From Beroe forskalii (taxonomy: Eukaryota > Ctenophora > Nuda > Beroida > Beroidae), in NCBI GenBank assembly GCA_011033025.1, contig WFMF01000274.1, positions 62,001 to 126,000 on the forward strand: 64,000 nt of DNA, written 5' to 3'. The translations under genes were made by a program, and so were the position numbers. Shown here in pieces: positions 27,479 to 33,768 of the stretch (the first letter of the stretch is position 1; the number at the start of each line of letters is the position of its first letter). The notes beneath the pieces are model-generated. The model ran no database searches. It had not been told where the DNA came from and saw only the letters and a list, made by a program, of their open reading frames with translations.

Positions 27479-27715
27479 GTGTTCCTGGCTAGTAAAAGAC
27501 CGGTTAACCGAACCGAAATACCGGTTAGCCGGGCGTTTTCAGCCAACCGAAACCAGAACCGTAACCGAATATTTTGATTTTCACAATTAACCGTTTAGGG
27601 AAATCGGTCGGTAAACCGAACCGAAACCAAAAACCGGTTAACCGGCGTTTTTAGCGAACCGAAACCGTAACCGGATTTATTGAGGAATGGTAACCGGTCG
27701 TTTGGTGTTCCTGGC
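27479..27715. mobile_element. GGTTAACCG inverted-repeat element, intergenic copy
   Basis: GTGTTCCTGGCT occurs at 27479-27490 and 27704-27715, a 12-bp direct repeat that fits a target-site duplication. Between them lie about 213 bp with terminal inverted repeats (AAAAGACCGGTTAACC on the left; GGTAACCGGTCGTTTG on the right). The inside is built of two similar half-units with AACCGAACCGAAA and CGAAACCGTAACCG blocks. No coding capacity. Copies of the same element fill introns 1 and 3 of the transporter gene at 31.2-33.1 kb. Confidence 0.8.
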
Positions 27716-28694: not shown

Positions 28695-28915
28695 AGGTGC
28701 AAGACATTAATTAATTTAATTCATCTCACAACATTTCATCTCAGGAAACTTTATAATATAACCCTGTTCTGACCCTCACAATGACCCTAACCGTAACCGG
28801 AACACTAACTCTTTACCCTTACCATACCCTTACATTTGCGTAGTAGTATAGAGTCTATAGGTATTGCGAGATAAAGTTTCGTGAGATGAAGTGTCATGAG
28901 ATGAATTATGTCCGT
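28695..28915. repeat. Palindrome with telomere-like core, copy 1
   Basis: The left arm has TTCATCTCACAACATTTCATCTCAGG and the right arm is its imperfect complement (GTGAGATGAAGTGTCATGAGATGAA). The core has CCCTAACC-like runs (GACCCTAACCGTAACCGG). A second copy is at 33546-33768. Confidence 0.65.
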
Positions 28916-29180: not shown

Positions 29181-30166
29181 TCAATCATATCTTAAAAACT
29201 CACCGAGCGTTACCATGAAACTTTCATCCATATCAACAAACAAACACTCATCCTGATGATCACGTCCAATTAGCAGATATTCGAATTTCTCCAACCTGTC
29301 CAGAAAAACTGGGAAGCGTGTCCCCAAGTTGACACCATTTACCGTGACATCATGGTAGAGTTCGGTTGTTATCTCAATGAAGATATCATTGACAGGAAGA
29401 ATATCTGTAGGCATTGGCACCAGGGTTTCATATTGTGAGCTCCACGCACCCTCCGAAGTTACCATGTTCTGGATGATCATGGGAGAGTTTTGATTCAGAT
29501 ATCGGAGCCCAATGTGATACAGGGTCAAATAGTCAGAATCCTGGATGTTAAAGGAAACTTGGAAAGCTTGGCAATTCCCTTGAGCTTTTTCTGGGTCGTA
29601 TATGGCAGTTATGTAGAACTTTGTTTTGATTCCTGGAGCACTGCAGTGGATTTTACTGCCAAGCTGACAATCTTTTATCGGATAAGATGCACCTGACGGG
29701 AATACCTTACAAAATAAAATAATTCTGACAATAATTCTGGGGATCGAAATTTTGGGGGTTCGAAAATATGGGGATTTTTTCGAAAAATCCCCAAATTTCG
29801 TACCTTTTAGATATTATGTCTCGTAAGGTAAGTCACATATCATATTCAGAATATGTCCTGAGTGTTAAGAACGGTCTCTGAAATTTCTGCGCGACAACGA
29901 TTTGTACGTACGTGATAATAATCACGTATGTACATGGCGCTGGGAAACTTGGAAATTCCAAAAGGATTCCCAAATTTCTGAAACTCGTGACACAAGTAAA
30001 ACAGCCATGAATGGTCAAGCTTTTCGGTGAAAGTTATAGATGATCTCAGATCACTTTCTTTCGAAAATTTGTATTGATTGATATAGTAAACTAGAATTTT
30101 ACCTTTTGTCAATGGAATGAGCATCATAAATGCGACCCAGCCGATATAACGCATCATTACAATCAT
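29181..30166 (-). CDS. Secreted galectin-like protein
   Basis: Two exons: 30166-30103 (ATG start; the TAG at about 30194-30196 closes the frame upstream) and 29692-29181, joined K-G|GA-S across a GT-AG intron. The product has 191 residues. Residues 1-22 form a hydrophobic signal peptide (MIVMMRYIGWVAFMMLIP). The rest resembles one galectin-type beta-sandwich: LTLYHIGLRY at the place of the HxNPR strand, a tryptophan (GAWSSQYE) at the place of the WGxE segment, then VTVNGVNLGTRFPV, like the VNGxxxxxFxHR strand. The sugar-contact HxNPR triad is mostly absent, so sugar binding is doubtful. Galectins usually lack a signal peptide. A donor-like GTGAGT at 29203 could instead extend the gene, but the frame closes eight codons on and no further exon was found. 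Confidence 0.6.
29739..29803. repeat. Hairpin GGGGATTTTTTCGAAAAATCCCC
   Basis: A nearly perfect inverted repeat inside the single intron of the galectin-like gene. A diverged copy (GACGAAATTTGGGTATTTTTTCGAG...AATTTCGTTCC) lies at 32384-32433, inside intron 2 of the transporter gene. Confidence 0.65.
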
Positions 30167-31171: not shown

Positions 31172-33069
31172 TTATCGTTCAATTATGCTCAAGAAAACAA
31201 TAATCTGTACGCAGCTCAAAACGAAGCAAAGCACCACGGCATAATACGTAGATAAGAATGCTGCAAAGATCGAACCCACTGCAGCTCCCAGCGAACCAAA
31301 AGCTATCATGACAAACGCTGCACTTTCCAAGTTCTTTGTCCCGAAGAAATACTTATCCGTCTCCATCAGACTCAGATCTATCCTAGAGATACAGAAAGCT
31401 AAGTTGGCTATTCCAACCCCTACAGCAGTCCAGATCAGGTCGTCTAGACGAAGTAGAACAAGCAAGTAAGCAGCAGCTATTACTGTGGAAACTATCGGGT
31501 GAATGACCCTGAAAGGTATGTACTTCAGCAGGAAGAACCCTGCAATCCGACCCACCATCTTGACACCCCCGAAGAGAAGAGCCAGGATTAGAAACTGGGC
31601 ACCATCCACATTAGCATCTTCCTTGTGGTTTGTCTCGTTACTGTGTCTCATCATTGTCTCATTACTGTGTCTCATTAGTGCAGGAGCCAGGATGATACTG
31701 CCCCATCCTTGTAGGAAGTTAATAAAGTTTGCTATGCAGGCCTTGAATAGCCTACATTTGAAGTTATGAACTTCAAAAGCATCCTCTTCATCACTCCCTG
31801 TATAATCTGATAAATTTCCGGATACAAGTCTCTGGCTTGGATCTGCTGATTTTCCAATACTTTTACTGGGATCTGCTGAATTTCCAAGACTTTGACTCGG
31901 AAACACAGTGTGCAGCAGTATAACCGGAGGTACCAACCAAGGGACTGACGAACTAACAATAAGGACTCTCCAGCCTAGCAAATCCAGAAAAAGATACCCT
32001 AAGATAGCTGCCCATCCACCCCCACTGCAAACATAATCACTGAAATGTACATACCAGCATTGTACACTTCGTAGGTTGATACCTCCTCTGCAATAAACAC
32101 GCATACCATCGCATAGTTGACTCCAATACACGCCCCTCTAATACACCTGGATTATGAAATTGTCAGTTATAAAAAAACCGAACCGAAATCGAAATACCGG
32201 TTAACCGGGCGTTTTTATTGAAAACATGGTAACCGGTTGTTTGCTTACCTGGATATCAAGAAGGTAGTGAGGTTTGGAACTAAGGCAGAAAACAAGGTTC
32301 CAAGGATGGTACAATACAAGGAGCACAGTAGGACACGTCTCCGACAGAACCTGCGGGTGGTGACTTACGTGATAAAATTATAAGGGACGAAATTTGGGTA
32401 TTTTTTCGAGAAAATGCCCATAATTTCGTTCCCCACAAGGTTTCAATATGACGTCATCATCATACATTAACATGCGTAATATCACCTTCCGAGGAGGGGG
32501 GCTATGACAATGCCTGCAGCAAACATGGAGACAGCAGTGCTGACAGCCAGCAGTCCTTCCTCTTGTCTTGTGACGCCCAACTCTGCCGCCACTACTTGGG
32601 TGAATACTCCTGGGAGATAGGAAACAACCGGTTAACTGAACCGAAATACCGGTTAACTTGGCGTTTTCAGCCAACTGAAACCGTAACCGAATATTTTTAT
32701 TTTACAATCAACCGTTCATGGGAAGCGGTAGGTTAACCGAACCGAAATATAAAAAAATTTGAAAAAAAAAAAAAAAAAAAAAAAAAAACGTTTTACCGGG
32801 CGTTTTAAGCAAACCGAAACCGTAACCGGATTTGTTGAGAAGTGGTACCTGGAAGATAGATCTCTACAGCATCCCCGAATACGGTGAATATTGTCACGGC
32901 GTACAGGAACTTGTCTCTTCGAGTCAGCTTGAGATTTGAGAAATCAACTGATGCTAAGCCCCTTTCTTTGGGTGAACTATTTTCAAATATCAGGGGTACT
33001 ACGTCACTGTCTTCCAAAGTCTTCATTGTCTTCCAAGTCTTCACTGTCTTCCAAGTCTTCAATCTTCAT
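31172..33069 (-). CDS. SVOP/SV2-like major facilitator transporter
   Basis: Four exons: 33069-32849, 32609-32486, 32350-32249, 32146-31172. The phases fit if one extra T (near 33020) is dropped and one G is added to the run at 32019-32023; the coding length is then 1422 nt (473 residues). The N-terminus repeats EDLED and is acidic. Next come TM1 (FLYAVTIFTVFGDAVEIYLP), TM2 to the GRFCRRRVLL loop (MFS motif A), TM3 (GTLFSALVPN), TM4 (RGACIGVNYAMV), TM5 (GGGWAAILGYLF), a cytoplasmic acidic loop (DYTGSDEEDAFE), and the C-terminal helices to IIER. SVOP and SV2 proteins are animal MFS members found on vesicles; substrate unknown. The loop repeats MRHSNET twice. Introns 1 and 3 are made of repeat elements. 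The two frame breaks are in base runs and are probably assembly errors. Confidence 0.85.
32145..32254 (-). mobile_element. Introner-like copy forming transporter intron 3
   Basis: The intron (32248-32147, 102 bp) holds an internally shortened copy of the GGTTAACCG element (about 32168-32243). ACCTGGAT occurs at 32145-32152 and 32247-32254, exactly 102 bp apart. On the coding strand this is ATCCAG|GT, so the donor GT lies in one copy of the direct repeat and the acceptor CAG in the other. This is the arrangement expected when a transposon's target duplication supplies the splice sites. Confidence 0.7.
32609..32859 (-). mobile_element. Introner-like copy forming transporter intron 1
   Basis: The 239-bp intron (32848-32610) is almost entirely one copy of the GGTTAACCG element, with both inverted ends and an added run of about 29 A on the plus strand near 32763-32788. 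CCTGG(G/A)AGATAG occurs at 32609-32620 and 32848-32859, 239 bp apart, with one mismatch. On the coding strand the repeat reads CTATCT(T/C)CCAG|G and spans both splice junctions. Confidence 0.7.
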
Positions 33070-33545
33070 CGTAATTTAACAAATACTGGCCTAATAAATT
33101 TTCATACTGGATTTTAATTTTTGTTTCGGTTGGAGTTCTGTTTTATCTGGCCTGGGAGCTGCCGCCCCCAGACTTCCGTTCCACATTCCACAAGTTCATA
33201 AAAATTCGGTTCAAATTTACCGGGAGGATTGAGCATACTGATTACTGCTAATGGGAGGAAAAATCTTTTCGGAAGGCAAAGATTTTGATCGAATCTTCAT
33301 AGCGAAGAAAGTCATGTAACATCAAGTGGACAATAATAACGAAGGTAAGTTTAAGTGTACATCGTTTAAAACATGCTCATAACATCAATGCACACGTAAA
33401 CTTGCACTTTGCAGCATGATTGAGAGTTCAACTTGGAACCTCACCGATCAAGTGTCTATAGTCTCTCTTGGCTGAGAAGTGAGAGCTTGCCTCATTTGAT
33501 GAGGAATACAATGCCGGAAGTCGTGCTCGTTCCTTCCCTTTTAAC

Positions 33546-33768
33546 GGACATTTCATCTCACGACAGTTCATCTCAGGACACTTCATCTCGCAATATGTCA
33601 GCTCTCTATGCAAAGGTAAGGGTCTGGGTTATGGTCAGGGTTAGGGTTTGGGTCAGGGTTTGGGTTTGGGTTAGGGTCAGGGTTAGGGTTTGGGTTAGGG
33701 TAATGGTTTGGGTCTGGACAGGGAGATTAAGTGTCCTGAGATGAAATGTCGTGAGATGAGATGTCGCC
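33546..33768. repeat. Palindrome with telomere-like core, copy 2
   Basis: Arms: GGACATTTCATCTCACGACAG on the left, TGAGATGAAATGTCGTGAGATG on the right. The core (about 33618-33712) is a degenerate run of GGGTTAGGGT, GGGTTTGGGT and GGGTCAGGGT, close to the animal telomere repeat TTAGGG. Probably an interspersed element that carries telomere-like sequence, since a smaller relative is at 28695-28915. Confidence 0.7.

Follow-up and report, generated by a model that had tools for sequence, protein, structure and literature searches.

A hAT-like MITE as a probable orientation-blind introner in the ctenophore Beroe forskalii

Analysis of a 64,000-nucleotide stretch of Beroe forskalii DNA (contig WFMF01000274.1, positions 62,001 to 126,000; hereafter the window) and of the genome around it makes it very probable that a short element, here called family A, is a hAT-like orientation-blind introner, by which intron 3 of an SVOP-like gene was gained, and that intron 1 of the same gene is an old intron with replaced content. 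The gene lies on the minus strand of the window and encodes an SVOP-like MFS transporter, the joined protein matching MFS_1 in Pfam (E=2.4e-13). The coding part of exon 1 (32849..33027), which begins at a predicted start codon, is followed by exon 2 (32486..32609), exon 3 (32249..32350) and exon 4 (31172..32146). Intron 1 (32610..32848, 239 bp) and intron 3 (32147..32248, 102 bp) are composed almost throughout of sequence of the GGTTAACCG element, and intron 3 is a truncated family A copy with donor GTAAGC and acceptor ATCCAG. A sequence-only reading of the window had proposed that these two introns are nearly whole copies of one short element, and the window sequence bears this out.

Direct repeats bound both introns, as had also been claimed. 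At intron 3, ACCTGGAT (forward strand; ATCCAGGT on the coding strand) is found at 32145-32152 on the acceptor side and at 32247-32254 on the donor side, identical at 8 of 8 bases. At intron 1, CCTGGGAGATAG (32609-32620) and CCTGGAAGATAG (32848-32859) agree at 11 of 12. Over 2 million random draws of pairs of window places 60-400 bp apart, the chance of an 8/8 match was 1.8e-4 and that of an 11/12 match 1.9e-4, or about 2e-4 each. The 12-bp match at intron 1 is real, but the duplication itself is read as 9 bp (CCTGGRAGA, 8/9): on the forward strand, CCTGGGAGA at 32609..32617 on the acceptor side and CCTGGAAGA at 32848..32856 on the donor side, the latter being exon sequence that is present in the paralogue L069 too. 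The additional TAG is coincident: one side owes it to the terminal TAG of the element, the other to exon sequence.

Family A and its target duplications

The reference copy, cited earlier as 27479-27715, consists of a 218-bp full-length element with both TIRs (27490..27707, forward strand) between two copies of the target duplication TTCCTGGC (27482..27489 on the left and 27708..27715 on the right); the longest ORF over its restored site has no Pfam match. Full copies start with TAGGAAACGACCGGTTAACC and end with GGTAACCGGTCGTTTGGTA. The TIR begins TA[CG][CG]AAACGACCGGTT, and the other end is its near mirror image. Across the 216 Mb and 1134 contigs scanned, the left-end pattern gave 545 matches at up to three mismatches vs 2 for a reversed-pattern control, and the right-end pattern gave 325 at up to two mismatches vs 1 for its control. 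Copies with clear duplications measure 66-230 bp.

Thirty-three unselected copies with both ends present were chosen by TIR quality, the flanks being ignored. A clear target duplication of about 8 bp is present in 26 of them, and the seven with weak duplications were dropped. No copy with three or more TIR mismatches entered this set; L009 and L014, whose flanks look introner-like by eye, are examples of those excluded. In the 26 duplications, T stands at position 2 in 13 and A at position 7 in 12 (p=0.005, with a background of 0.3 assumed). The hAT transposon hobo has the duplication motif nTnnnnAn according to the available part of PMC11226609, and family A resembles hAT MITEs of the hobo/Ac type in its 8-bp duplication biased to this motif and in its short TIRs. 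The element is too short to code, and the hAT dimerisation domain (PF05699) has 23 matches in the genome. Judged by these features, family A is a non-autonomous hAT-like MITE. Intron formation is not, to our knowledge, typical of hAT MITEs.

One scanned contig of 13.3 kb, C1134, carries at 40-1344 a T-rich, apparently very divergent mitochondrial COX1 (L121) with TGA inside the frame. It presumably has AGR at the usual Arg and ATA at the usual Ile positions, i.e. code 4. Taken with collagen, SRCR, PAN and laminin-EGF matches among the host genes of family A, it suggests a non-bilaterian animal, most probably a ctenophore.

Introns of the SVOP-like gene

The SVOP paralogues compared here are the best 12 among 105 matches to a single 219-aa query. 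All 12 lack intron 3, with the reading frame continuous there, and the empty target could be aligned at the DNA level in seven of them at 70-79% identity (gap-free in six, with two compensating gaps in the seventh). The target is single at these empty sites, as with TTGATATCCAGGTGCAT in L074. The joined intron 3 site has seven contiguous matches in the genome, six of which are paralogues of the same set of seven. Absence from every fetched paralogue, together with seven uninterrupted targets, argues that intron 3 is a gain. The sequence-only reading had attributed both introns to gain by the element; its proposal stands for intron 3 and is not supported for intron 1, where paralogues have introns as well. 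The SVOP-like MFS genes appear expanded in this genome, many of the 105 matches lying in long single open frames, and many of the copies are possibly intronless.

An intron of unrelated sequence stands at exactly the intron 1 position in L069, L072 and L075, which are all three of the close paralogues whose fetched stretch covers both exons; five distant paralogues run through the position. This common position speaks against a gain of intron 1, and the unrelated introns of the paralogues lead us to read intron 1 as an old intron, the content of which has been replaced by a family A copy. The donor end would fit the loss of 15 bp between two TACC repeats within the TIR, and if this TACC-TACC deletion is allowed the window element abuts the splice sites with the 8/9 repeat. 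Replacement may have proceeded by loss and re-gain of the intron; alternatively, the element may have inserted at the donor boundary, with a later deletion between CAGG repeats. It is conceivable, if somewhat doubtful, that the repeats at intron 1 are a matter of chance, the element having landed within the old intron and deletions having trimmed the intron to its edges. Acceptors are often pyrimidine-rich CAG|G, so the acceptor of intron 1 would resemble the exon end TCTTCCAG regardless, and comparable trimming is seen in intron 2. However, both element ends adjoin the repeats once the 15-bp deletion is granted, and the acceptors of the three paralogues (ACTCAG or GCTCAG) are less similar to the window's TCTCCCAG.

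Intron 2 (32351..32485) occupies an old position and, as the sequence-only reading did not remark, is mostly transposon too, being largely a truncated half of a MITE from another family, B. Family B has the TIR CCTTACGARAYAAATTT and a TA duplication, with window copies at 32351-32485 and about 29706-29830 and further copies in L004 and L005. As the intron 2 copy is truncated and its edges do not coincide with the splice sites, we make no claim that family B is a second introner. In one SVOP paralogue (L076:100-1450), intron 2 is an array of AAAAAGGTTTGT-like units, each resembling the donor site itself.

Two further observations concern the window gene. Exon 4 has a frame break of a single base in a C/G homopolymer (32018-32029), at a site where the fetched paralogues read through. 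The break could be a sequencing indel, a polymorphism or the sign of a young pseudogene, and the window gene could thus be a pseudogene. Upstream of the gene, 33540-33750 holds CATCTCRnGACAnTTCATCTC units as well as degenerate GGGTTAGGG-like repeats; similar units occur near 28700-28910.

Family A copies and reading frames across the genome

With two mismatches allowed, a pattern combining CAGG with the TIR matched 224 times, vs 8 for the reversed control. All 62 matches with at most one mismatch were listed, 28 of them carrying CAGG, and three of the 38 two-mismatch matches listed carry it too. The CAGG set of 30 copies comprises 27 of the 28, which were fetched, L003 and the three two-mismatch copies, less L115, which lies at a contig end; L094 on the minus strand (113 codons) and L003 (139) are additions to this set, and the two window introns are outside it. 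Ten fetched [AGT]AGG copies, together with the L094 kinase copy taken from its other end and on the opposite strand, form a comparison set of 11, with L019 (45 codons) and L042 (40 codons) left out and L011 counted as unselected. The element and one duplication were deleted in silico from each copy, and the restored site was scored for a sense ORF across it of 110 codons or more. The far end was picked by TIR and repeat match with AG required, and ORF length played no part.

Such an ORF is found in 22 of the 30 CAGG copies, compared with 3 of the 26 unselected copies, for which the longest ORF in any of the six frames was counted (Fisher 2.9e-6; one of the three has exactly 110 codons), and with 1 of the 11 [AGT]AGG copies (Fisher 3.3e-4; 1/10 without the opposite-end entry of L094). 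The eight CAGG copies below the threshold are L082, L084, L086, L088, L090, L096, L100 and L119. If the six with an uncertain far end (L083, L088, L096, L107, L119 and L120) are removed, the count becomes 19 of 24. The sense ORF exceeds the antisense ORF in 22/28 CAGG copies. A GAGG copy, L108, has a long frame as well, adjoining a DBC1 match. Several of the 22 copies lie in recognizable genes, and these copies elsewhere in the genome support the view that the element generates introns.

Pfam matches were obtained for 14 of the 30 CAGG proteins, the input being the upstream part alone for L083 and L088; for L095, where two introns are possible, the shorter one was assumed. A domain spans the junction in six: kinase (L094), dynein AAA_7 (L098), Stealth_CR2 (L099), SRCR (L087), collagen (L084) and ASXH (L112). 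The scores of L087 (SRCR), L109 and L112 (ASXH) fall under the curated cut-off, the Amanitin match of L089 looks spurious and the ATG16 coiled-coil match of L095 is doubtful. Collagen, SRCR, PAN and laminin-EGF matches are represented among these proteins. The control ORFs, drawn from 10 of the 11 [AGT]AGG copies and 20 of the 26 unselected ones (the remainder having at most 47 aa), gave a match in 3/30 and a junction-spanning one in 0/30; a recognizable coding match was present in 2 of the 20 unselected copies. When five junctions were compared with PDB sequences, four (DYNC2H1 in L098, GNPTAB in L099, DIS3/RRP44 in L091 and asparagine synthetase) were free of gaps at the junction, the DIS3 and asparagine synthetase alignments having gaps elsewhere; the fifth, a cathepsin, has gaps near the junction. 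In these gap-free joins and in the six spanning domains, the element edges coincide with the predicted splice sites and the coding sequence is restored on removal. Similar introns recur across unrelated genes, including those for DYNC2H1, DIS3, a cathepsin and a kinase, and the frames of the DYNC2H1 and DIS3 hosts are open in the stretch covered.

At a matching cathepsin-like exon end, L085 (C469:106689) and L107 (C558:518082) apparently have one introner in common, which may for this reason predate the duplication of these loci; a tandem repeat at the exon end adjoins it.

Homologues of 18 joined junctions were sought as paralogues within the same genome. Contiguous intron-free matches, that is, absence of the intron from homologues as expected of a gain, were found for three: intron 3 of the window, L089 (four places and a shorter one) and L099 (one place). 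For the other 15, the genome itself gave no intron-free homologue. Paralogues with the same intron present were found for L089, L092 and L098.

A preference of the element for CCAGG targets, suggested by the sequence-only reading, is not supported by the 26 unselected duplications with their bias to T2 and A7: one contains CCTGG, and CAGG occurs at 0 of 52 oriented ends. At intact ends CAGG was counted 10 times and the versions with any of the other three bases 12 times in all (p=0.03), a modest enrichment. With these two counts side by side, survival rather than targeting would be the better explanation, exonic copies persisting where the duplication ends in CAG|G.

Other histories of these introns have to be weighed. 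Insertion into pre-existing introns, with later deletions leaving the element to fill them, is true of the intron 1 position, as the three paralogues indicate, and of intron 2 with its family B sequence. As an account of the family A introns it is improbable, however, given the 12 paralogues without intron 3 and the seven uninterrupted targets among them. Old introns would leave residual sequence, and the long restored sense frames of the CAGG copies therefore speak against it, as do the four gap-free protein joins. The exonic copies might instead be unspliced insertions in dead or dying genes, with CAGG as a target preference, for which the frame break of the window gene could be cited. We consider this quite unlikely, since the [AGT]AGG copies were picked alike and lie in a long frame in only one of 11 cases, the unselected copies have no CAGG preference, and the hosts include DYNC2H1 and DIS3 with their open frames. 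Exact intron loss occurs across many lineages, and intron 3 could on that ground be ancestral and lost in every paralogue; but all 12 fetched paralogues, in which the duplicated target occurs once, would then have to have lost an intron made of a mobile element, and this is exceedingly unlikely.

From insertion to intron, and related systems

In the gain of introns from family A as we propose it, a copy would be mobilized by a hAT transposase, and some 8-9 bp at the target site would be duplicated on its insertion. Where this target has CAGG at its end, a GU donor (CAG|GTA) would arise from the final duplicated G and the terminal T of the element, and the second target copy would provide the acceptor CAG|G. 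On either strand, the TTAAC/GTAAC of the far TIR would place a branch-point-like A some 21 nt before the end of the intron. Predicted splicing would drop the element with one target copy and restore the mRNA. That the duplication supplies CAG|G at both boundaries, as the sequence-only reading held, is supported by the paralogues of intron 3 and by the 22 long frames. In 20 of 32 introns the branch-point-like A stands 20-22 nt before the end of the intron (one of these reads GTGAC), a spacing that is supplied by the TIR and inherent in any full copy. With near-symmetric ends, family A would be orientation-blind as an introner. Copies are found in both orientations because the TIR ends are equivalent: 12 forward, 18 reverse and 2 unclear among the 32 introns from family A copies, and 9, 12 and 1 among the 22 with a long frame.

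The introners of Micromonas and Aureococcus, on which Huff et al. reported in 2016, are said to be MITE-like and of genomic scale, with the duplication contributing splice sites; their hosts are algae, whereas the host of family A is an animal. In the accessible part of their survey, Gozashti et al. 2022 (PMC9860276) describe introners in 175 of 3,325 genomes, among them families with TSDs and TIRs that recruit splice sites in varied ways. Among animals and land plants they are rare there, with two groups in total, each of them animal. Family A is like the DNA-transposon introners of that part of the survey in its TIRs, its short target duplications, its presence as introns in many genes and its animal host, and in splice sites that would come wholly or partly from the duplication. 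It is unlike them in a GU donor that would straddle the junction (G from the target, T from the TIR), in equivalent ends with copies in both orientations, and in that its unselected copies are mostly without a coding match (2/20 had one). The word hAT is absent from the text of PMC9860276, and copepods are the only animal hosts named in its accessible part. The copepod Eurytemora affinis, in the part of PMC5714493 available, likewise presents a burst of lineage-specific introns in an animal; unlike those of family A, they have non-canonical GA/GG donors, and the words transposon and target site are absent from its text. PMC6142364, alone among the papers found, contains both introner and ctenophore, introner once, in its reference list. 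Among the papers listed by the literature searches, none describes the family A element or ctenophore introners; a prior description may exist.

We tentatively suggest, with rather less assurance than for the introner itself, that B. forskalii, a non-bilaterian animal, harbors an orientation-blind introner of hAT descent. Its symmetric TIRs, with a donor-completing T and TTAAC/GTAAC on both strands, would allow any exonic CAGG on either strand to become an intron, and at least once the element may also have displaced all the former sequence of an old intron with the position unmoved. As the element, filled sites in exons and unfilled sites in paralogues all occur in a single genome, the birth of an intron may be read in it directly. 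The symmetric ends predict that copies are spliced in both orientations and that those in exons persist where the target is CAG|G. Intron 1 raises the question of whether a transposon can take over the entire sequence of an old intron without shifting its position, which would matter for the dating of introns by position.
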